Positions 340 through 7,974 of a stretch of DNA of 7,974 nt are shown piece after piece (position 1 is the stretch's first letter; each line of letters starts with the position of its first letter). The notes under the pieces were generated by a model that was not told the DNA's origin, ran no database searches, and saw nothing but the letters and a program-made list of their open reading frames with translations. The stretch lies in contig JAUVWB010000062.1 in assembly GCA_030604345.1 (NCBI GenBank), forward strand, positions 1 through 7,974, written 5' to 3'. Made by a program: the position numbers and the translations under genes. The DNA is from Desulfofustis sp. GTDB lineage: Bacteria > Desulfobacterota > Desulfobulbia > Desulfobulbales > Desulfocapsaceae.

Positions 340-2454
340 GTGAGTTTTATGAATTTCATCACCACGTGTGCCGGCGGGCTCGAAACACTCATTGCCATGG
401 AAGTGCAGGGGTGGAGTGGCGTTGTCGAGGAAACGGGAGCTGGCTCGGTTCGATGGTCAGGGCCTCTGGCCTCCGGATATCGCGCCTGTCTGTGGTCGCG
501 ATTCGGATCCCGGGTGCTGTTGGTGATCAACGAATTCGACCTGGGGTCGGTGCAGGATGTCTACGACCAGGCAACACTCATCCCATGGGAAGAACACCTG
601 GCCGAAGGGGGTTGTTTCGCCGTTGATTGTCACCTGGGGAACGATGCGGTTCTTACCCACAACCGCTTTGCCGCTCTTCGCTTGAAGGATGCAATCGTTG
701 ACCGGTTCCGAGACCGGACCGGACAACGACCCGATGTGCAGCTGAAACGGCCTGACGTCCGTTTTCACCTGTCAGTTCGCGGCAATCGGGGGACGGTCGC
801 GGTCGATCTGTCGGGCGAAAGCCTGCATCGCCGCGGATATCGACACCATGGAGGCGAGGCGCCGCTGAAAGAAAGTCTGGCGGCCGCCATTATCAAGCTG
901 AGCGGATGGGATCCGGCCACCCCGCTGATCGACCCGCTTTGCGGATCCGGCACGCTGCTCATCGAGGCGGCATTGATGCGAGGAGACGTGGCACCGGGGC
1001 TCGAGCGGACCTATTTTGGCTTCCAGAAATGGGTGGGCCACCAGGAACGGCTCTGGCAAGAGCTTGTCGAAGAGGCGCTGGCACGTGAAGAGCAGGGCCA
1101 ACGCGACACGTGGCCGCCTCTGCTCGGTTACGATGCCGACCCGGAGATGGTTGCCGCAGCGCGCCGGAATGTCGGCCGGGCCGGATGCGACCAACAGATT
1201 GCCATAACCTGCCGTGAACTCTCCCGCCTTCACGGGGAAACGGGATCCGTGGGGTGGGTTGTCTGTAATCCCCCCTATGGTGAGCGCTTGTCATCAACCG
1301 AAGCGGTCCGCTACCTGTATCGGTGTCTGGGCAATCGCCTGCGCGAGTCGTTCTCCGGCTGGCACCTGGCTCTTTTTACCGGAAGACCGGAGTATGCCGA
1401 TCTCCTGCAGCTCTCCTGGAGGGAGACGTGGCGACTGTATAACGGTCCGCTGCCTTGTGGACTCTACGTGGCCGACATTCCTGCACCCGACCCGGCCTTT
1501 TGCTGGCAGGTGGGAGCGGTGGACGAGGCCGAGGGACGGGATCTGGTTAATCGTCTGAAAAAGAACCTGGAAAAACGGCTGCCCTGGTCCCGGCAAGAGG
1601 GGATTGAATGTTTTCGTATCTATGATCGCGACCTGCCTGACTACAACGTGGTCATTGAGATTTTTCGCAAATGGGTATTCATCAAGGAGTTTTCATCGGG
1701 AAAAGCGGTTTGCGAACAGGTGGCGGAACAACGGTGGAAAACGGTGGTCGGCACGGTTCGATCGCTTCTGGGGGTGGGGCGGGATCGGCTGTTTTTCGCT
1801 CGCTATCGTCGTGACGGCAAGAGCCAGCGCGGCAAAGGGGGGAAGAAGGTCGAGGTCGGCGAGGGAATGGCGCGCTATCTGGTTGAGTTTACTCCCGGGG
1901 CGGTGTCGGGCTTTGATCTCGATCAACGCTCGGTGCGCCGTTTTATCCATGACCATGCCGCCGGCAAAGCCCTCCTGAGTCTGGCCGATCGGGACGGGGC
2001 TGCAGCGGTGCAGGCGGCTCTCGGTGGGGCCGACAAGACGGTTACCCTTGCCGTATCGCCGGAGGCGGCAGGTCGCATGGCGGAGAATTATGCTCTCAAT
2101 GGACTGTACGCCAAGAACCATCACATCGTGGTCGCCGATGTGCATCGCTGGCTGGCGCAAGAGGACGGACAATACGATCTGATTTTACTCACCATACGAC
2201 CCGGTTTTCAGGAGGGAGGCGAAAAAAGGAGAACGTTTTCACCGGAATGGTGCGGAGAACTCATTGATTCCGTCATGCGTCGGCTCCGGCCGCAGGGAAC
2301 CCTCCTGTGTGCGGTGCACGAGCGGTCTTTCACCCTTGCCCAGCCCGTGTCCGAGCGCTATTGGTGCAGACAGTGCGATCGGCTGTTGTTGCCCCGGGAC
2401 GCTGAGCGTCGTGCGGGACGGAGTCGTTTTTGGGAAGTCCGACATAAGCGTTGA
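340..2454 (+). CDS. rlmKL: 23S rRNA guanine methyltransferase RlmKL, with a degenerate RlmK half
   Basis: The family is a two-enzyme fusion that modifies 23S rRNA during 50S assembly: the RlmL half makes m2G2445 and the RlmK half makes m7G2069 (E. coli numbering). In order I see a THUMP region (about residues 45-157), the RlmL methyltransferase with SAM motif DPLCGSGTLL at 198 and catalytic NPPYGER at 310-316, and then a colinear RlmK-like half from about 400 to the end. The RlmL half looks fully active. In the RlmK half the key positions are altered: the family's LFSYTG is ADRDG (549-553), the motif II Asp is Ala571, DPPTF is TIRPG (618-622), and FLDHR is DLDQR (526-530). Length is 704 aa, against 702 for E. 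coli RlmL. I chose GTG 340 because GAGGA at 329-333 is well spaced from it. ATG 349 (701 aa) aligns better with the E. coli start and remains possible. Confidence 0.93.
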   Translation: MSFMNFITTCAGGLETLIAMEVQGWSGVVEETGAGSVRWSGPLASGYRACLWSRFGSRVLLVINEFDLGSVQDVYDQATLIPWEEHLAEGGCFAVDCHLGNDAVLTHNRFAALRLKDAIVDRFRDRTGQRPDVQLKRPDVRFHLSVRGNRGTVAVDLSGESLHRRGYRHHGGEAPLKESLAAAIIKLSGWDPATPLIDPLCGSGTLLIEAALMRGDVAPGLERTYFGFQKWVGHQERLWQELVEEALAREEQGQRDTWPPLLGYDADPEMVAAARRNVGRAGCDQQIAITCRELSRLHGETGSVGWVVCNPPYGERLSSTEAVRYLYRCLGNRLRESFSGWHLALFTGRPEYADLLQLSWRETWRLYNGPLPCGLYVADIPAPDPAFCWQVGAVDEAEGRDLVNRLKKNLEKRLPWSRQEGIECFRIYDRDLPDYNVVIEIFRKWVFIKEFSSGKAVCEQVAEQRWKTVVGTVRSLLGVGRDRLFFARYRRDGKSQRGKGGKKVEVGEGMARYLVEFTPGAVSGFDLDQRSVRRFIHDHAAGKALLSLADRDGAAAVQAALGGADKTVTLAVSPEAAGRMAENYALNGLYAKNHHIVVADVHRWLAQEDGQYDLILLTIRPGFQEGGEKRRTFSPEWCGELIDSVMRRLRPQGTLLCAVHERSFTLAQPVSERYWCRQCDRLLLPRDAERRAGRSRFWEVRHKR

Positions 2455-2628: not shown

Positions 2629-3687
2629 ATGCCTCATTTTTCCCGGGTCGGATTTCATAGCTTCGGCTATGAGCTCCCCCCCCATATCCTCACCTCAGAA
2701 GCCATAGAACAGCGACTCGCCCCTCTCTACCGACGGCTTAAACTGCCGGAGGGCCGGTTGGAGATGATGAGTGGTATCAAAGAGAGACGCCTCTGGCGGC
2801 AGGGGACGAGACCGAGCGAGGTGGCGGTCCGAGCCGGCCGCAAGGCCCTGGCGGCGGGTGGGGTCGAAGCGGACCAGGTACAATGTCTATTTTTTACGTC
2901 GGTGTCGCGCGATATGATGGAGCCGGCAACGGCGTCGTTTGTCCATCATGGCCTCGGCCTGCCGAACGACTGTCTGGTGTTCGATATTTCCAACGCCTGT
3001 CTCGGTTTCCTTGATGGCATTGTCATGCTGGCCAACATGATTGAACTGGGCCAGGTGGACAATGGCTTGGTGGTCAGTGGAGAAACCGCCGAAGGGTTGC
3101 TGGAGTCTACCATCAGCGTGTTAAACGAGGACCGGTCGCTGACCAGAAAGAGCATCAAGAAGGCCTTTGCGTCCCTGACCATTGGCTCCGGGGCGGTTGG
3201 GTTTTATCTGTGCCGTCTCGACCCGGCCCAATCAGTCGTACCGCGGCTGGCCTATGGTGCATGGAAAGCCAATACCGCACATGTTGATCTGTGCCAGGGG
3301 GGACAGACCGGTGAAGCCGTGACCTTGATGGCCACCGATTCGGAAGAGTTGATGATCCAGGGGATCGAAACGGCGCACCAGACCTGGCTGTCTTTTTCGG
3401 CCATCAGTGGTTGGCAGGCGGACGATATCGACTGTTTTTTCTGCCACCAGGTCGGGTCGGCACACAGCAGGATGCTTTTTGCCCAGCTTGGGCTTGATCC
3501 CCTGCGAAACTTTGCGACGTTGTCCCATCTCGGTAATGTCGGTTCTGTTTCCGCACCGATTACCATGGCCCTGGCCATGGAGCAGGGAGTATTTCGTCGC
3601 GGCGGGAAGGGGGCTTTGCTTGGTATCGGAAGCGGCATCAATTGCATGATGCTTGGCGTCGATTGGTCATGGGAGGAGATTTCGTGA
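2629..3687 (+). CDS. OleA-like thiolase (3-oxoacyl-ACP synthase III superfamily)
   Basis: This is a 352-aa thiolase-fold condensing enzyme. It resembles OleA, which joins two fatty acyl-CoA chains head to head, more than FabH, which uses malonyl-ACP. The OleA signature TSVSRDMMEPATAS is present, including the Glu (E98) that serves as base in OleA. The catalytic triad is complete: Cys124 in SNACLGF, His273 in CHQV and Asn303 in LGNVGS. The Glu-to-Cys (26) and His-to-Asn (30) spacings equal those I recall for Xanthomonas OleA (E117, C143, H285, N315). The C-terminal IGSGINCMM loop also fits. AGGA lies 4 nt before the ATG. The gene overlaps the next by GTGA, so translation is coupled. OleB, OleC and OleD are not in the window, so the product may be a ketone or another acyl derivative rather than an olefin. 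An ordinary FabH paralogue is the alternative. Substrate and product are inferred. Confidence 0.85.
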   Translation: MPHFSRVGFHSFGYELPPHILTSEAIEQRLAPLYRRLKLPEGRLEMMSGIKERRLWRQGTRPSEVAVRAGRKALAAGGVEADQVQCLFFTSVSRDMMEPATASFVHHGLGLPNDCLVFDISNACLGFLDGIVMLANMIELGQVDNGLVVSGETAEGLLESTISVLNEDRSLTRKSIKKAFASLTIGSGAVGFYLCRLDPAQSVVPRLAYGAWKANTAHVDLCQGGQTGEAVTLMATDSEELMIQGIETAHQTWLSFSAISGWQADDIDCFFCHQVGSAHSRMLFAQLGLDPLRNFATLSHLGNVGSVSAPITMALAMEQGVFRRGGKGALLGIGSGINCMMLGVDWSWEEIS

Positions 3688-4256
3688 AACCGGTGACAGA
3701 AGAGCAGGGAGCACAACTCATCCGTTTGGCCCGGGACACCATCGCCGAGCGCCTCGGGCTTGTCACCCGGGTGAGCGGTGCGGGGCTTGACGGCGAGGAG
3801 CTGCAGCAGCGTTGCGGCACGTTTGTAACCCTCAAGCGTGGCGGCCAGCTGCGCGGCTGTATCGGTAACCTCGAGCCGGCGGGAACGATAGTAGATGCGG
3901 TGCGGCGTAACGCTGAGAGTGCCGCCTTTCAGGATTACCGCTTTGCGCCGCTGACGGCCGACGAATTCCCCCAGGTCGAGGTGGAGATATCCATACTGAC
4001 CCCGGCCCAAAAGCTCTCCTACCAGGATGGGGATGACCTGGTGGCGCGGCTGCGCCCGGGCATCGATGGGGTCATTCTGCAGCAGGGGTCGGCTCGTGCC
4101 ACCTTTTTACCGCAGGTCTGGGAACAACTGCCCGAGCAGGTGCAATTCCTCGAACAGCTCTGTCGCAAAGCCGGAATCGCACCTTCGGCCTGGCGCCACC
4201 AACGACCGGATATCTTTGTCTATCAGGTGCGCAGCTTTACCGAGCACGGCCGATGA
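3684..4256 (+). CDS. amrA: AMMECR1 domain protein (AmmeMemoRadiSam system protein A)
   Basis: A 190-aa protein made almost entirely of an AMMECR1 domain. The hallmark LRGCIG is at residues 56-61, preceded by GTFVTLKRGG and followed by the family's VEVEISILTP segment. The biochemical function of the family is unsettled. In many bacteria and archaea it is encoded with a Memo-like protein (B) and a radical SAM enzyme, hence the name, but neither partner is in this window. I chose GTG 3684 because GGGAGGAG (3671-3678) sits 5 nt upstream and because it makes a 4-nt GTGA overlap with the thiolase stop. Upstream in-frame ATGs at 3642 and 3669 lack this support. The 3' end overlaps the next gene by ATGA. 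It is therefore the middle gene of a coupled trio and should be made in step with the thiolase and the cysteine-cluster protein. The family call is firm and the role is unknown. Confidence 0.88.
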   Translation: MKPVTEEQGAQLIRLARDTIAERLGLVTRVSGAGLDGEELQQRCGTFVTLKRGGQLRGCIGNLEPAGTIVDAVRRNAESAAFQDYRFAPLTADEFPQVEVEISILTPAQKLSYQDGDDLVARLRPGIDGVILQQGSARATFLPQVWEQLPEQVQFLEQLCRKAGIAPSAWRHQRPDIFVYQVRSFTEHGR

Positions 4257-4885
4257 AACTGATCCTGGACCGCGCGCTGGCTGCCGAGTTGGCCGAGCTG
4301 TTTCGTTCGATGGAAGCTGCCTACGACCAGGTGGCCGTGCAGCTGGGTCATGGCTGTGATGGCTGCCCGGACAATTGCTGCGATTCGTACTTCACCCATC
4401 ATACTTATATCGAGTGGGCCTATCTCTGGGAAGGGATTGCAGCCCTGCCAAGCGACCTGCGGGAAATGATCGTCGAACGGGCCCACCAATGTGAGCTTCT
4501 CTATCAGGAAGCGCTGGGACAAGGAGCGCGACCCCAGGTCATGTGTCCGCTCAATGGAGATGGACGATGCCTGGTCTATGGCCACCGGTTGATGGTGTGC
4601 AGAACGCATGGCGTACCGGCGCAGATGACCAGGCCGGACGGAAAGATCATCCGCTTTCCCGGGTGCTTCCGCTGTGCCGAACGGGTGCGGCAGTGGCCGG
4701 AACACAAAACGCTTCCGGTCATGGAGCGGACCGCTCTCCTGCGTCGACTGGTTCTTCTGGAGCAGCGCTTTCTCCAGGGACACCGGGCCCAGGTGGCCCG
4801 TTTGAGCATGACCATTGCCGGAATGCTGACCGCCGGGCCACCGACTCGAGGCATCTTGCCCAGCGATCACTCCAGGGAACCTTGA
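4253..4885 (+). CDS. YkgJ-type cysteine-cluster (putative Zn/Fe-binding) protein
   Basis: A 210-aa protein with the cysteine pattern of the YkgJ / zinc- or iron-chelating domain family. It has C35-x2-C38-x3-C42-C43 near the N-terminus, C98 and C106 in a CPLNGDGRC segment, C116 in VCRTHG, and C138-x2-C141. This looks like a metal or Fe-S cluster site. Family members are poorly characterised and I cannot assign a reaction. The last 65 or so residues are helical and basic with no further Cys. The ATG overlaps the AMMECR1 stop as ATGA and has no strong Shine-Dalgarno of its own, so it probably depends on translational coupling. It is the third and apparently last gene of the operon. The next gene starts 163 nt downstream with its own ribosome binding site. 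Confidence 0.8.
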   Translation: MKLILDRALAAELAELFRSMEAAYDQVAVQLGHGCDGCPDNCCDSYFTHHTYIEWAYLWEGIAALPSDLREMIVERAHQCELLYQEALGQGARPQVMCPLNGDGRCLVYGHRLMVCRTHGVPAQMTRPDGKIIRFPGCFRCAERVRQWPEHKTLPVMERTALLRRLVLLEQRFLQGHRAQVARLSMTIAGMLTAGPPTRGILPSDHSREP

Positions 4886-4984
4886 AAAATTGCCATTTCG
4901 CCCAATCTCATCGTTGCGCAATCACATTTGATCCTCGGAATATCATGTATATGACTGCGGTAAAATGATCTTGCGCGCCTCGAT

Positions 4985-5011
4985 CTTGAACGAAATTTCG
5001 AATTTTTCAAG
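4985..5011. other. AT-rich imperfect inverted repeat upstream of the thioesterase gene
   Basis: CTTGAA (4985-4990) and TTCAAG (5006-5011) are perfect inverted repeats around an AT-rich core that can pair a few bases more. It lies in the 163-bp gap (4886-5048) between the YkgJ-type gene and the thioesterase gene. It could be the end of the upstream operon or an operator, although no T-run follows. I see no convincing promoter or terminator elsewhere in this gap. Confidence 0.25.
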
Positions 5012-5048
5012 CTCCCCTCCAAGCGTTGACAACGGCCGGGAGGAAACG

Positions 5049-5570
5049 GTGAAACATGAAATCAGGGGGCGTCAGCCCAACTCAAGAATGTGCTTTGTCT
5101 GTGGCATGGATAACCGATATGGCCTGCAGAGCCGCTTTTATGAGCTGGATAACGGTGAAATCGTGGCGTGTTTTCGACCAGCCGACGAACACCAAAGCTA
5201 TCCCGGCCGGTTGCATGGCGGCATAGCGGCCGCCATTCTTGATGAAACCATCGGCCGGGCAGTCTTGAATCACCAGGAAGATGAGTTGTGGGGGGTCACT
5301 CTGGAGTTTTCCATGAAGTTCCGGAAACCGGTGCCGCTTGATCGGGAGATACGGGTTGTTGCCCGAGTGGTGGAGGAAAACAAACGCAGTTTCTGTGGCA
5401 CCGGGGAGATAATCCTGGCCGACGGCTCGGTGGCGGTCGAGGGGAGCGGCCGCTATCTGAAGATGGCGCTGTCGAAAATCACTGATGCCGAGTTCAAGGA
5501 GGAGGAGTGGCGGGTGGTCGAACCGGGCGGCGCCGATCCGACAGAGCTCGAGCTGCCGGATCGGCGGTAA
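5049..5570 (+). CDS. PaaI-family hotdog-fold thioesterase
   Basis: A 173-aa single hotdog domain, likely an acyl-CoA (or acyl-ACP) thioesterase in the cytoplasm. The helix motif LHGGIAAAILDET (HGG at 56-58, Asp65) carries the usual oxyanion and catalytic positions of the PaaI/THEM4-like group. The N-terminal CFVCGMDNRYGL segment (Cys15, Cys18) is a common lead-in for this subgroup. The C-terminal tail of about 30 residues is acidic and lies outside the fold. I chose GTG 5049 because GGGAGGA (5038-5044) sits 4 nt upstream. An in-frame ATG at 4965 has no ribosome binding site and would add a low-complexity extension. It is not coupled to the upstream operon. The substrate cannot be read from the sequence. 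A functional link to the OleA-like enzyme upstream (both handle acyl thioesters) is only suggested by proximity. Confidence 0.85.
   Translation: MKHEIRGRQPNSRMCFVCGMDNRYGLQSRFYELDNGEIVACFRPADEHQSYPGRLHGGIAAAILDETIGRAVLNHQEDELWGVTLEFSMKFRKPVPLDREIRVVARVVEENKRSFCGTGEIILADGSVAVEGSGRYLKMALSKITDAEFKEEEWRVVEPGGADPTELELPDRR
5531..5566. terminator. Ten-bp perfect hairpin at the 3' end of the thioesterase gene
   Basis: CGCCGATCCG (5531-5540) and CGGATCGGCG (5557-5566) form a perfect 10-bp stem around a 16-nt loop. The structure ends just before the TAA stop (5568-5570), at the junction with the convergent nikR gene, where a terminator is expected. No T-run follows in either direction, so it may act as a 3' end-protecting structure or a factor-assisted terminator rather than a canonical intrinsic one. 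The 73-nt gap after it (5571-5643) has only a weak 5-bp repeat at 5570-5587. Confidence 0.4.
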
Positions 5571-5643: not shown

Positions 5644-6054
5644 TCAATGCAGGTCTTTTCCCGTGGTGCTCATTGCCAGGTTGCAGTTGCGTACGCCGCG
5701 CAGGGAGCGCAGGCGGTCGGCCAACTCGTTGACGGATCCGGCTTTGCCTTTGATGATGATGACTTCCAGGCAGTTGTGATGATCCATGTGGACGTGCGTG
5801 GTCGAAACGATCTGGTGGTGATAGTCGTGCTGGATTTCGGTCACCTTTTCCTGGAGTTTGTGCTGGTGGTGGTCGTAGACCATGGTGACGACCCCGACCA
5901 CATCCTTGTCTGCCTGCCATTCCTTGGCAACAAAGGAGGAGCGGATCAGATCGCGGATCGCTTCCGAGCGGTTGACATACTTCTGCTGGGAGATGTAGGT
6001 GTCGAAGTCATCGAGCAGTTTTTCGTCGAGCGAGATGGTGAATCGTTTCAACAT
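5644..6054 (-). CDS. nikR: Nickel-responsive transcriptional regulator NikR
   Basis: A 136-aa protein with an N-terminal ribbon-helix-helix DNA-binding domain (about residues 1-45, with KRFTISLD and the NRSEAIRDLIR helix) and a C-terminal ACT-like nickel-binding domain. All four high-affinity Ni(II) ligands of E. coli NikR are present at the same numbers: His76, His87, His89 and Cys95 (in THVHMDHHNCLE). Extra histidines at 62, 63, 65, 79, 80, 92 and 93 may add metal sites. NikR is a tetramer that represses nickel uptake genes, and in some lineages nickel enzyme genes, when nickel is plentiful. GGAAGG (minus strand, 6067-6062) lies 7 nt before the ATG. It is transcribed divergently from trmO behind a promoter at 6078-6106. 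No nickel transporter, hydrogenase or other nickel gene is in view, so its targets are elsewhere. Confidence 0.96.
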   Translation of the reverse strand: MLKRFTISLDEKLLDDFDTYISQQKYVNRSEAIRDLIRSSFVAKEWQADKDVVGVVTMVYDHHQHKLQEKVTEIQHDYHHQIVSTTHVHMDHHNCLEVIIIKGKAGSVNELADRLRSLRGVRNCNLAMSTTGKDLH

Positions 6055-6161: not shown

Positions 6162-6908
6162 ATGGCCGGTGATGGGTTACAGATAGTCGGCAGGATTCGG
6201 TCCTGCTTTCCGGAGAATTTCGGCATCCCTCGTCAAGCCGGTCTGGTTCCGACCGCGATCGCAGAACTCCGGTTTACCAAGGAGTTTTCCAGGCAGGAGC
6301 TGGTTCGGGGGCTGGAGCAGTTCAGTCATGTGTGGCTGCTTTTTCTTTTTCATCAGGCATTGGCCGAAGGGTGGCAGCCGACGGTTCGCCCGCCACGACT
6401 GGGGGGGCGCCGGCGACTGGGCGTTTTTGCCACGCGCAGCCCGCATCGTCCCAATCATCTGGGTCTTTCTCTGGTCCGCCTGCTCGGTATTGATCAGGAG
6501 GGTGAACAGCCGGTCCTGATCCTCGGCGGTGTTGATCTGCTGGACAACACACCGGTGTTCGACATCAAGCCCTATCTCTCCTATGCCGATACGGCTGTCG
6601 ATCCGCACTGTGGTTGCTTCGAGCACAAAGACGTGCCGGTGGTCGTCACTTTTTCGAGCGCTGCCGGTGATTTTTGCCGAGACTACCAGCTGCAAACGGG
6701 CCGGCCGTTGGCCAGGCTGATCGAGGAGGTGTTGGCGGCCGACCCGCGTCCGGCCAGTCAGCGGGGCCGAAAAAAGAGCTTCGGGATGAACCTGTGGGAG
6801 GTGAATATTCGCTGGCAGGCGGACGGCAACCGCTTCCACGTCGTGAGTTGCACCGTTACCGGCACGGCTGGCTCATCGACCCTCACGGGGAATCGAGTCC
6901 CTCGATGA
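6162..6908 (+). CDS. trmO: tRNA (N6-threonylcarbamoyladenosine37-N6)-methyltransferase TrmO
   Basis: A 248-aa TrmO (YaeB/TsaA family) enzyme, which uses SAM to convert t6A37 to m6t6A37 in tRNAs that read ACY codons. Family signatures are clear: the opening IVGRIRS, IPRQAGLV (22-29), the FSHVWLLFLFH segment (54-64), VRPPRLGG (75-82), ATRSPHRPNHLGLS (90-103), DIKPY (133-137), and DPRPA near the C-terminus. The length is close to E. coli TrmO (235 aa) with a Ser/Thr-rich tail of roughly 15-20 extra residues. GGAGGAGG (6141-6148) precedes the ATG by 13 nt, which is rather long, but no better in-frame start exists. The gene is divergent from nikR, and its last 26 bp overlap the 3' end of lptC on the other strand, so the tail residues share DNA with the LptC C-terminus. 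Confidence 0.94.
   Translation: MAGDGLQIVGRIRSCFPENFGIPRQAGLVPTAIAELRFTKEFSRQELVRGLEQFSHVWLLFLFHQALAEGWQPTVRPPRLGGRRRLGVFATRSPHRPNHLGLSLVRLLGIDQEGEQPVLILGGVDLLDNTPVFDIKPYLSYADTAVDPHCGCFEHKDVPVVVTFSSAAGDFCRDYQLQTGRPLARLIEEVLAADPRPASQRGRKKSFGMNLWEVNIRWQADGNRFHVVSCTVTGTAGSSTLTGNRVPR
6873..6908. terminator. Inverted repeats at the trmO/lptC convergent junction
   Basis: Two alternative pairings share this stretch: TCATCGA (6873-6879) with TCGATGA (6902-6908), and a tighter ATCGAG (6892-6897) with CTCGAT (6901-6906) around a 3-nt loop. The second arms include the trmO stop codon. Convergent genes usually need a bidirectional terminator about here. There is no T-run, so the assignment is tentative. 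Confidence 0.28.
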
Positions 6909-7464
6909 CACAATAGACCCGGCCACCCACCCGGTACTGCCCGGTGGTGATGTCGTAGTCGAGGCTGGAACCCTTGATGTCCACGTGCTCGCCAACCATC
7001 CTGGTGGCTCCCGGCGATTTGATGGTCCGATCGTGGTCGAAATAGTAGAGTTCTTCGGTAAAGAGCTGCTGGTTGTCGGCAACCTGGTTGATCCGGACAT
7101 TTTCCCGCAAAATCAGTTGCCTCGTCTCGGTGTTGTAGACACCAACCCGGGCGAGGACATGGATCCGGTTGCCCTCTTCGTCGAACAGGTCGGCGTCCAC
7201 CGAGCTGAGGACGAACTCGTTCGGCACCGCACTGGTTTGCGCTTCTGCGGCGCGAATTTCTGCCGTTTTCAATCCGTCCTGGTTCTGCAGAATCACCACC
7301 CGTTCCATGGTGAAATTATGGGTTGTCTGCTGTCGGTCGCCGAAGTGCGGGTCGAAACCGCCCCGCGGTTCGAGAAAGGAAGCCAGCGGCAGTCGCCAAA
7401 CCGGGAAGGTGAAAAGCAGGCCCAGGGGGATCAACCAGACGAGGTTGCGGCGGTTGAGAGTCAT
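6883..7464 (-). CDS. lptC: LPS export system protein LptC
   Basis: A 193-aa protein with the LptC plan: a single N-terminal membrane anchor (about residues 8-23, after the basic TLNRRN start) and a periplasmic beta-jellyroll domain rich in alternating hydrophobic and polar strands. LptC sits with LptBFG in the inner membrane and hands LPS to LptA on the way to the outer membrane. The length matches E. coli LptC (191 aa). The start is fixed by a 4-nt ATGA overlap with the kdsC stop. An upstream ATG at 7611 would add 49 basic residues lying wholly inside kdsC and ahead of the membrane segment. Sequence conservation in this family is low, so the call rests on size, topology, strand pattern and the kdsC neighbour. 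No lptA or lptB follows: the gene ends against convergent trmO. Confidence 0.85.
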   Translation of the reverse strand: MTLNRRNLVWLIPLGLLFTFPVWRLPLASFLEPRGGFDPHFGDRQQTTHNFTMERVVILQNQDGLKTAEIRAAEAQTSAVPNEFVLSSVDADLFDEEGNRIHVLARVGVYNTETRQLILRENVRINQVADNQQLFTEELYYFDHDRTIKSPGATRMVGEHVDIKGSSLDYDITTGQYRVGGRVYCVIEGLDSP

Positions 7465-7974
7465 GACAGAAAACGCTGCAACAGCGCCTCGTGTTGTCCT
7501 TTGGCGGTGATAATCAGATCGCAGAGTTGGCGCACGGCCCCATGACCGCCGGTTCGTTGCGCGATAAAATGGCAGGCGGCCTGCACTTCCGGAACGGCAT
7601 TTGCCGGACAAGCGGCGAGCCCGACGCGACGGAGCAGGCCCAGATCGATCCAGTCGTCGCCCATGTAGCAGACCTGAAACGGTTTCCGCCCCGAGCGCTG
7701 CAGGATCTCTTTAAAGGCATCGAGCTTTCGTTCGACGCGTTGATAGGCATAGGTGACCGCCAGTTCTGCGGCCCGTCGCGTGACCATGTCCGAACTTCGG
7801 GCGGTAATCAGACCGGTTTCTATGCCTGCCAGATGCAGCAGCTTGATACCGAGTCCGTCCTGGGTGTGGAAGGTCTTGCTCTCAACTCCCGATTCACTAT
7901 AGATCAAAGAGCCGTCGGTCAGAACGCCATCCACGTCGAACAGGACCAGCGAAACGGCGGCGGCTCGATCCCGA
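7461..7974 (-). CDS. kdsC: 3-deoxy-D-manno-octulosonate 8-phosphate phosphatase KdsC (5' end cut by right window edge)
   Basis: A HAD-superfamily phosphatase that removes phosphate from KDO-8-phosphate to give KDO, the inner-core sugar of LPS. The visible part is 170 residues and stays open to the edge. The nucleophile motif FDVDGVLTDG lies at about 7940-7911 (first Asp codon 7937-7935). Motif II is ITARSS, a motif III Lys lies in VERKLDAF, and motif IV is GDDWIDLG. The C-terminal GGHGAVRQLCDLI is typical of KdsC. A GTG at 7934 would start inside the catalytic DxD and remove the nucleophile, so the true start must be upstream, beyond the window, with probably only a handful of residues missing. 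It overlaps lptC by 4 nt, matching the kdsC-lptC order known from E. coli and other Gram-negatives. Confidence 0.93.
   Translation of the reverse strand, partial: RDRAAAVSLVLFDVDGVLTDGSLIYSESGVESKTFHTQDGLGIKLLHLAGIETGLITARSSDMVTRRAAELAVTYAYQRVERKLDAFKEILQRSGRKPFQVCYMGDDWIDLGLLRRVGLAACPANAVPEVQAACHFIAQRTGGHGAVRQLCDLIITAKGQHEALLQRFLS

Follow-up and report, generated by a model that had tools for sequence, protein, structure and literature searches.

The window analysed here, a 7,974-nucleotide stretch of DNA from Desulfofustis sp. (contig JAUVWB010000062.1, forward strand), encodes near its start a fusion protein of the RlmKL type, in which an RlmL half (N2-methylguanosine, m2G, at 2445 of 23S rRNA) precedes an RlmK half (7-methylguanosine, m7G, at 2069). 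We read this protein, with a probability of roughly 0.6, as a working RlmL fused to a recurrent pseudoenzyme K domain, retained because it assists RlmL in binding or opening helix 74. The K half has kept its predicted fold and purifying selection and has lost its catalytic residues; to judge from its motifs, it very probably can no longer bind S-adenosylmethionine (SAM) normally or methylate G2069. The initial annotation had proposed a pseudoenzyme domain, and motif loss, a kept fold, purifying selection, recurrent loss with the domain retained and the lack of a second RlmK in a congener all favour that proposal, which is drawn largely from sequence comparison. We hypothesise that the dead K half plays a helper role, in RNA binding, scaffolding or stability.

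The RlmK half has lost its catalytic motifs

The gene and its parts are as follows, all on the + strand; residue numbers count from the ATG at 349.

340..2454: RlmKL fusion gene with degenerate RlmK half (longest reading frame; NCBIfam and E. coli alignment)
349..1512: RlmL half, residues 1-388, intact; ferredoxin-like, THUMP and m2G methyltransferase domains (Pfam PF22020, PF02926, PF01170)
931..960: RlmL SAM-binding motif DPLCGSGTLL, residues 195-204, kept (motif alignment)
1267..1287: RlmL catalytic motif NPPYGER, residues 307-313, kept (motif alignment)
1534..1839: accessory segment at the N-terminal end of the RlmK half, residues 396-497; RLKKN and YDRDLPDYN lie within this strongly conserved stretch, which we take to correspond to the ‘EEHB’ domain found in RlmI-type enzymes
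1840..2451: RlmK methyltransferase core, residues 498-701, under purifying selection; by prediction folded but without catalysis
1915..1929: DLDQR (523-527) in place of FLDHR, with His526 replaced by Gln and Arg527 kept (E. coli alignment)
1981..1998: LADRDG (545-550) in place of LFSYTG, presumably SAM motif I (E. coli alignment)
2047..2061: LAVSP (567-571) in place of VDMSR; Asp568, which we take to be the motif II acid, is replaced by Ala (E. coli alignment)
2086..2106: NYALNGL (580-586), retained segment (E. coli alignment)
2191..2208: TIRPGF (615-620) in place of catalytic DPPTF (motif IV; 615-619), with a one-residue insertion (E. coli alignment)
2398..2400: Asp684, retained

Two start codons are possible, GTG at 340 (704 residues, the same length as homolog P0001) and ATG at 349 (701 residues). 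The NCBIfam model of the RlmKL fusion, NF008748, matches residues 2-700 with 626.6 bits against a cut-off of 466. In the RlmL half the ferredoxin-like, THUMP and UPF0020 domains are present together with motifs of the form DPxCGSGT and NPPYGER, as the initial annotation had stated for DPLCGSGTLL and NPPYGER, and from these intact motifs we infer that this half is a working m2G2445 methyltransferase. The K half alone scores 202 bits with NF008748, compared with 507 bits for that of L084, a relative with an intact K, and Pfam recognises in it a weak Methyltrans_SAM match at 477-624 (37.8 bits, cut-off 27).

The motifs were read against the E. coli protein itself (YcbY; PDB 3v8v and 3v97; MG1655 rlmL, L001), which has the same domain order, the same fold over its whole length and RlmL motifs of the same kind. 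Its K half carries FLDHR, LFSYTG, VDMSR and DPPTF, whereas all four are replaced in the window protein: motif IV reads TIRPGF where an RlmK has DPPTF or DPPSF, and DLDQR and Ala568 stand in the places of FLDHR and the motif II acid. The claim that every RlmK functional motif is changed was thus upheld at each listed substitution. The sites themselves were correctly placed, although the earlier residue numbers (Ala571, 618-622) are 3 too high for an ATG-based count, having been counted from the GTG at 340. GGA and N-x3-NGL are present and in order in the E. coli alignment, and the half is therefore colinear and not frameshifted, as had also been claimed; no DPPxF was found at any displaced position in the alignments.

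The RlmI-type 23S rRNA 5-methylcytidine methyltransferases (NF033380, NF053718, NF011707; PDB 3c0k, 2b78, 3vse, 1wxw) differ: the window K half scores far below the NCBIfam cut-offs of all three families, and the three RlmI-type enzymes compared keep PPSF or PPAF at the DPPTF position, where the window has TIRPGF. The match to mt-LAF24 of a trypanosome mitoribosome assembly intermediate (PDB 6yxx chain E4) is insignificant in sequence (E 0.1), and the literature search turned up no paper that names this protein.

Degenerate K halves among relatives

Homolog P0001 (7 member sequences, 2 contigs) is 99% identical to the window protein and in the same state, and the congener gene L082 is 91% identical, with the same lesions; its genome, G055, is a 4.23-Mb single contig (order Desulfobulbales, class Desulfobulbia, according to NCBI). 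Desulfogranum mediterraneum, of the same order, has an intact K half (L003). Across 267 aligned rows, near-duplicates included, all five hallmark residues of the K half were found in 225, four in 9 and three or fewer in 33, and 24 of the 120 homologs listed (of 7641) have a degenerate K half. A search of 146 Desulfobulbales genomes gave a match at E ≤ 1e-60 in 82, comprising 65 fusion loci and 17 RlmL-only proteins. All 65 fusion loci were read; seven are degenerate (L082, L083, L126, L132, L138, L139 and L140) and L135 is borderline. Over the class Desulfobulbia, a K match at E ≤ 1e-40 was obtained in 160/257 genomes, and the K half is degenerate in at least 18 of these, one of them (L157) borderline; this figure is a minimum because individual residues were inspected only in the low scorers and in the genomes of the order sample. 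Fragments G019 and G157 stand outside the classification. A single-sequence query of genome contigs found no relative. A separate scan with an alignment as query, of which the best 80 loci were kept (mostly Gammaproteobacteria by title), showed all five hallmark residues in 80/80; since resemblance to the query alignment decided which loci were kept, they are no random sample.

Borderline proteins were called as follows: L135 (DPPAL) was left uncounted; L157 (LDLAQR, NPPSA) and L160 (APPSL), both of which have the motif II acid, were counted as dead; and P0040 (FLDQR, HTG, DPPKF) was counted as intact despite two missing hallmark residues.

Two observations concern the intact fusions. Many of them have NLPYGER or NLPFGER for NPPYGER in the RlmL half (P0025, P0027, L097, L098, L112, L115 and others), a change in the other active site that occurs in 0/31 dead-K rows. 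For six intact relatives (L107, L109, L114, L119, L121 and L125) the best match ends near query residue 603-605, or near residue 226 with an intact K query, apparently through an insertion late in the K half.

K catalysis has probably been lost repeatedly

Trees were restricted to the RlmL half in order to exclude the columns of the trait itself, and were built by quick searches in which SH-aLRT, and not the bootstrap, measured branch support. A 98-row tree omitted L141 (short), P0001, P0007 and near-duplicates (>90% for dead rows, >72% for intact rows); a 104-row tree (31 dead rows), to which class-wide rows were added, omitted the long or odd L077, L142, L143, L145, P0025 and P0079 and had four P rows swapped for genome copies L153-L156; fragments L162-L166 lay outside both. 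The smaller tree needs eight changes of state, all eight forced by branches with SH-aLRT ≥ 95, and forcing its 26 dead rows into one group costs 650 log-likelihood units (approximately unbiased (AU) test, p 1.4e-35); a single common origin of the dead K halves is rejected. The larger tree needs ten changes, nine of them forced (needed and forced: 9 and 9 when L157 is dropped, 8 and 8 when L160 is dropped too, 11 and 9 when L135 is taken as dead). Since the outgroup and most neighbours are intact, these changes are read as losses.

The window protein falls in a dead clade of 18 rows (SH-aLRT 94). The question raised earlier, whether the loss is clade-wide, has a more complex answer: beyond that clade there are at least seven further separate losses (eight with the borderline L160). 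Among the relatives sampled, K catalysis appears from these trees to have been lost 8 to 10 times, and the domain not. When the 17 RlmL-only proteins of Desulfobulbales were analysed together with the 104 fusion rows, they formed one side of a branch (support 90); within this sample of the order, none of them therefore arose from a fusion by loss of the K half.

Constraint on the dead K half is relaxed but present

Pairwise ratios of non-synonymous to synonymous substitution rates (dN/dS, by NG86) between the window gene and its congener are lowest in the K accessory part (0.056), with 0.166 in the K core (bootstrap 0.08-0.32) and 0.20 in the L half. Other dead pairs gave K-core values of 0.46 (0.29-0.81; L138/L161), 0.14 (0.09-0.20; L158/L159) and 0.10 (0.06-0.17; L126/L158), of which the last two represent one lineage and are near saturation (dS 0.9-1.7); L155/L156 is saturated. 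Six intact pairs lie at 0.04-0.08. The dead pairs stand above the intact ones and are still low, hence constraint is relaxed but present.

Distances and branch lengths agree with relaxation. The ratio of K-core to L-half rate is 0.68 in 39 intact rows versus 1.95 in 18 dead rows. The K-core branch is longer on the dead side in 8/8 dead-versus-sister triplets (0.32-0.73 vs 0.11-0.22), and L-half branches in the same triplets, at 0.11-0.34 for dead and 0.07-0.29 for sister rows, are slightly longer in 6/8; a common sister serves two pairs of triplets, the borderline L135 enters one triplet, and a few of the counted changes are motif residues that define the dead class. Among 85 K columns with at least 95% conservation across intact rows, most dead rows have lost the residue at 31, the catalytic motifs included; the corresponding figure for the L half is 4 of 101.

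Fifty-eight K columns are still at least 85% conserved over 18 divergent dead rows. E505, R527, R530, N584 and D684 are present in 31/31 dead rows, as is the RlmL motif NPPYGER, and Gly585 in 30/31. Position 526 is His in 70/72 intact rows and, in the dead rows, Gln in 26/31, Arg in two, His in two and Tyr in one. Gln526 spans seven dead lineages on the 104-row tree (six without the borderline L157), and the RlmI-type relatives 2b78, 3vse and 1wxw carry Gln at the equivalent position, so that several dead lineages have reached the residue of their paralogues. In L135 (LDQR with DPPAL) and P0040 (LDQR with DPPKF) Gln is found while motif IV still starts DPP, which suggests that loss can start at this position.

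A structural comparison with E. coli RlmKL, proposed in the initial annotation, was made: the AlphaFold2 model of the window protein keeps the RlmK fold on structural alignment, and the dead K half is predicted to be still folded. The model has a low-confidence loop at residues 621-630 (pLDDT 58). Loop disorder was rejected as a sign of K death, the same loop being poor in the intact control P0011 as well (blocks of 69-70, residues 628-630 under 50).

The rRNA target is unchanged in a congener

The congener G055 has three rRNA operons, and all three 23S copies keep GACCCCGTGAACC with G at 2069. The search pattern that found them required G at 2069; a second pattern, taken from the opposite strand of the helix 74 region and not including 2069, matched the same three operons, each time 375 bases away, and thus all three copies keep G2069. 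One aligned copy has both strands of helix 74 as in E. coli (2050-2080 with one difference, which is common to two intact relatives; 2428-2455), and a changed rRNA target was rejected on this basis. The first pattern matched 4/15 genomes, and among dead genomes the 23S reading covers G055 and G032. In G032 (L150; G032:C63:43200-46800) G2069 is present; there is no alignment at E. coli 2428-2455, and GGATAACAGG is missing, possibly because the assembly is damaged or broken off in the peptidyl transferase region.

A helper domain weighed against the alternatives

According to PMC11194073, which credits Kimura 2012 for the first two points, the E. coli K domain enhances RlmL activity, E. coli RlmKL unwinds helix 74, m7G2069 is made before m2G2445, and 50S assembly benefits from the L domain even when that domain is inactive. 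By analogy, the dead K domain would grip or open helix 74 and so aid RlmL, or alternatively would hold RlmL in the right pose, in either case during 50S assembly; a K domain without catalysis and with its docking surface would preserve that help. Several points weigh against this. The rate of the K core relative to L is about threefold higher in the dead clade than in intact rows, and constraint on it has therefore weakened. The K core carries a mean net charge of 4.9 over the 31 dead rows, compared with 4.3 over 72 intact ones, so that stronger RNA binding through added positive charge was rejected as a general trend, net charge not being raised; single basic gains do occur (P617 to R in 78% of 18 rows; R478/R485) and prove no role. 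The existence of 17 sampled genomes of the order with RlmL and no fused K means that RlmL can do without it, and according to PMC11194073 the E. coli L and K domains each work on their own, the isolated L domain being enough to stimulate 50S assembly, so that K is not strictly needed there. Searches by K homology, finally, would miss an m7G enzyme unrelated to RlmK.

That acceleration, the loss of 31/85 of the most conserved K columns, catalytic motifs included, and the unchanged net charge would also suit a functionless remnant, tolerated because it must fold to spare the fused RlmL, with purifying selection reflecting folding alone. We consider this unlikely. Folding alone could give dN/dS below 1 in four dead pairs, but the remnant explanation sits poorly with the 58 conserved columns and with five residues retained in 31/31 dead rows; moreover, deletion of K would solve the problem, yet 0/17 sampled RlmL-only proteins of the order descend from fusion rows. 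It is quite improbable that the K half has rebuilt its active site and remains catalytic, using another nucleophile or acting on another target. Sub-clades of the window's dead clade do have conserved motif IV replacements (NIRS, GLHKS, NLRRK), the motif II acid is kept in P0061, L132, L138 and L139, and motif IV of L157 is NPPSA; against this, both the motif II acid and motif IV are gone from the window protein and most dead rows, and the replacements differ by lineage, as expected for release and not for a common new chemistry.

Similarly improbable is a second enzyme that still makes m7G2069 and leaves the fused copy free to decay. The unchanged G2069 and helix in the congener would fit it, as would a further K-like frame in G062 (dead; 519 residues) and G096 (borderline L135; 558 residues), both at E ~1e-20. 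However, the check for a second RlmK, run on G055, found no second K-like protein at E ≤ 0.01, the only PF10672 match there above the cut-off being the dead K domain itself, and each of the 18 dead genomes of the class has one K match at E ≤ 1e-40 (intact K halves mostly lie below 1e-90). We infer that m7G2069 is either missing or the product of an enzyme without kinship to RlmK. That the degenerate half stems from faulty sequencing, a frameshift or misalignment has a negligible chance of being correct: nothing in its favour was found, and it conflicts with the colinear alignment and its retained segments, with the same motifs in L082 and P0001, and with dN/dS well under 1.

Neighbouring genes

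The remainder of the window holds the following features, identified by Pfam unless stated.

2629-3687: ketoacyl-acyl carrier protein synthase III-like
3642-4256: AMMECR1
4253-4885: cysteine-rich frame of 210 residues, starting within the last bases of the AMMECR1 frame and unmatched in Pfam at E ≤ 1e-4
4965-5570: 4HBT thioesterase
5644-6054, - strand: NikR
6162-6908: TrmO
6883-7611, - strand: LptC-related
7461-7973, - strand: HAD hydrolase, presumably KdsC-like

Implications

A literature search of titles and the beginnings of abstracts, with subscription papers mostly outside its reach, found no description of a natural loss of RlmK catalysis. These sequences suggest that NF008748, named ‘bifunctional RlmK/RlmL’, mislabels the function of the degenerate proteins; several degenerate homologs, among them P0002, P0004, P0007 and P0114, bear such a name. 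Whether recurrent catalytic death of K leaves a regulatory or unwinding pseudo-methyltransferase on RlmL, and ribosomes without m7G2069, we regard as an even bet.

Deletions of single rRNA modification enzymes have only minor effects on growth in E. coli, as stated in PMC11194073, which raises the question whether selection keeps the mark or the contact between enzyme and rRNA. Lineages that have separately lost the m7G2069 active site and still carry the domain would serve as natural experiments on this question. If our reading is correct, it is the non-catalytic role of the K domain, and not the methyl mark, that keeps the fusion together, and that role would be defined by the five residues E505, R527, R530, N584 and D684.
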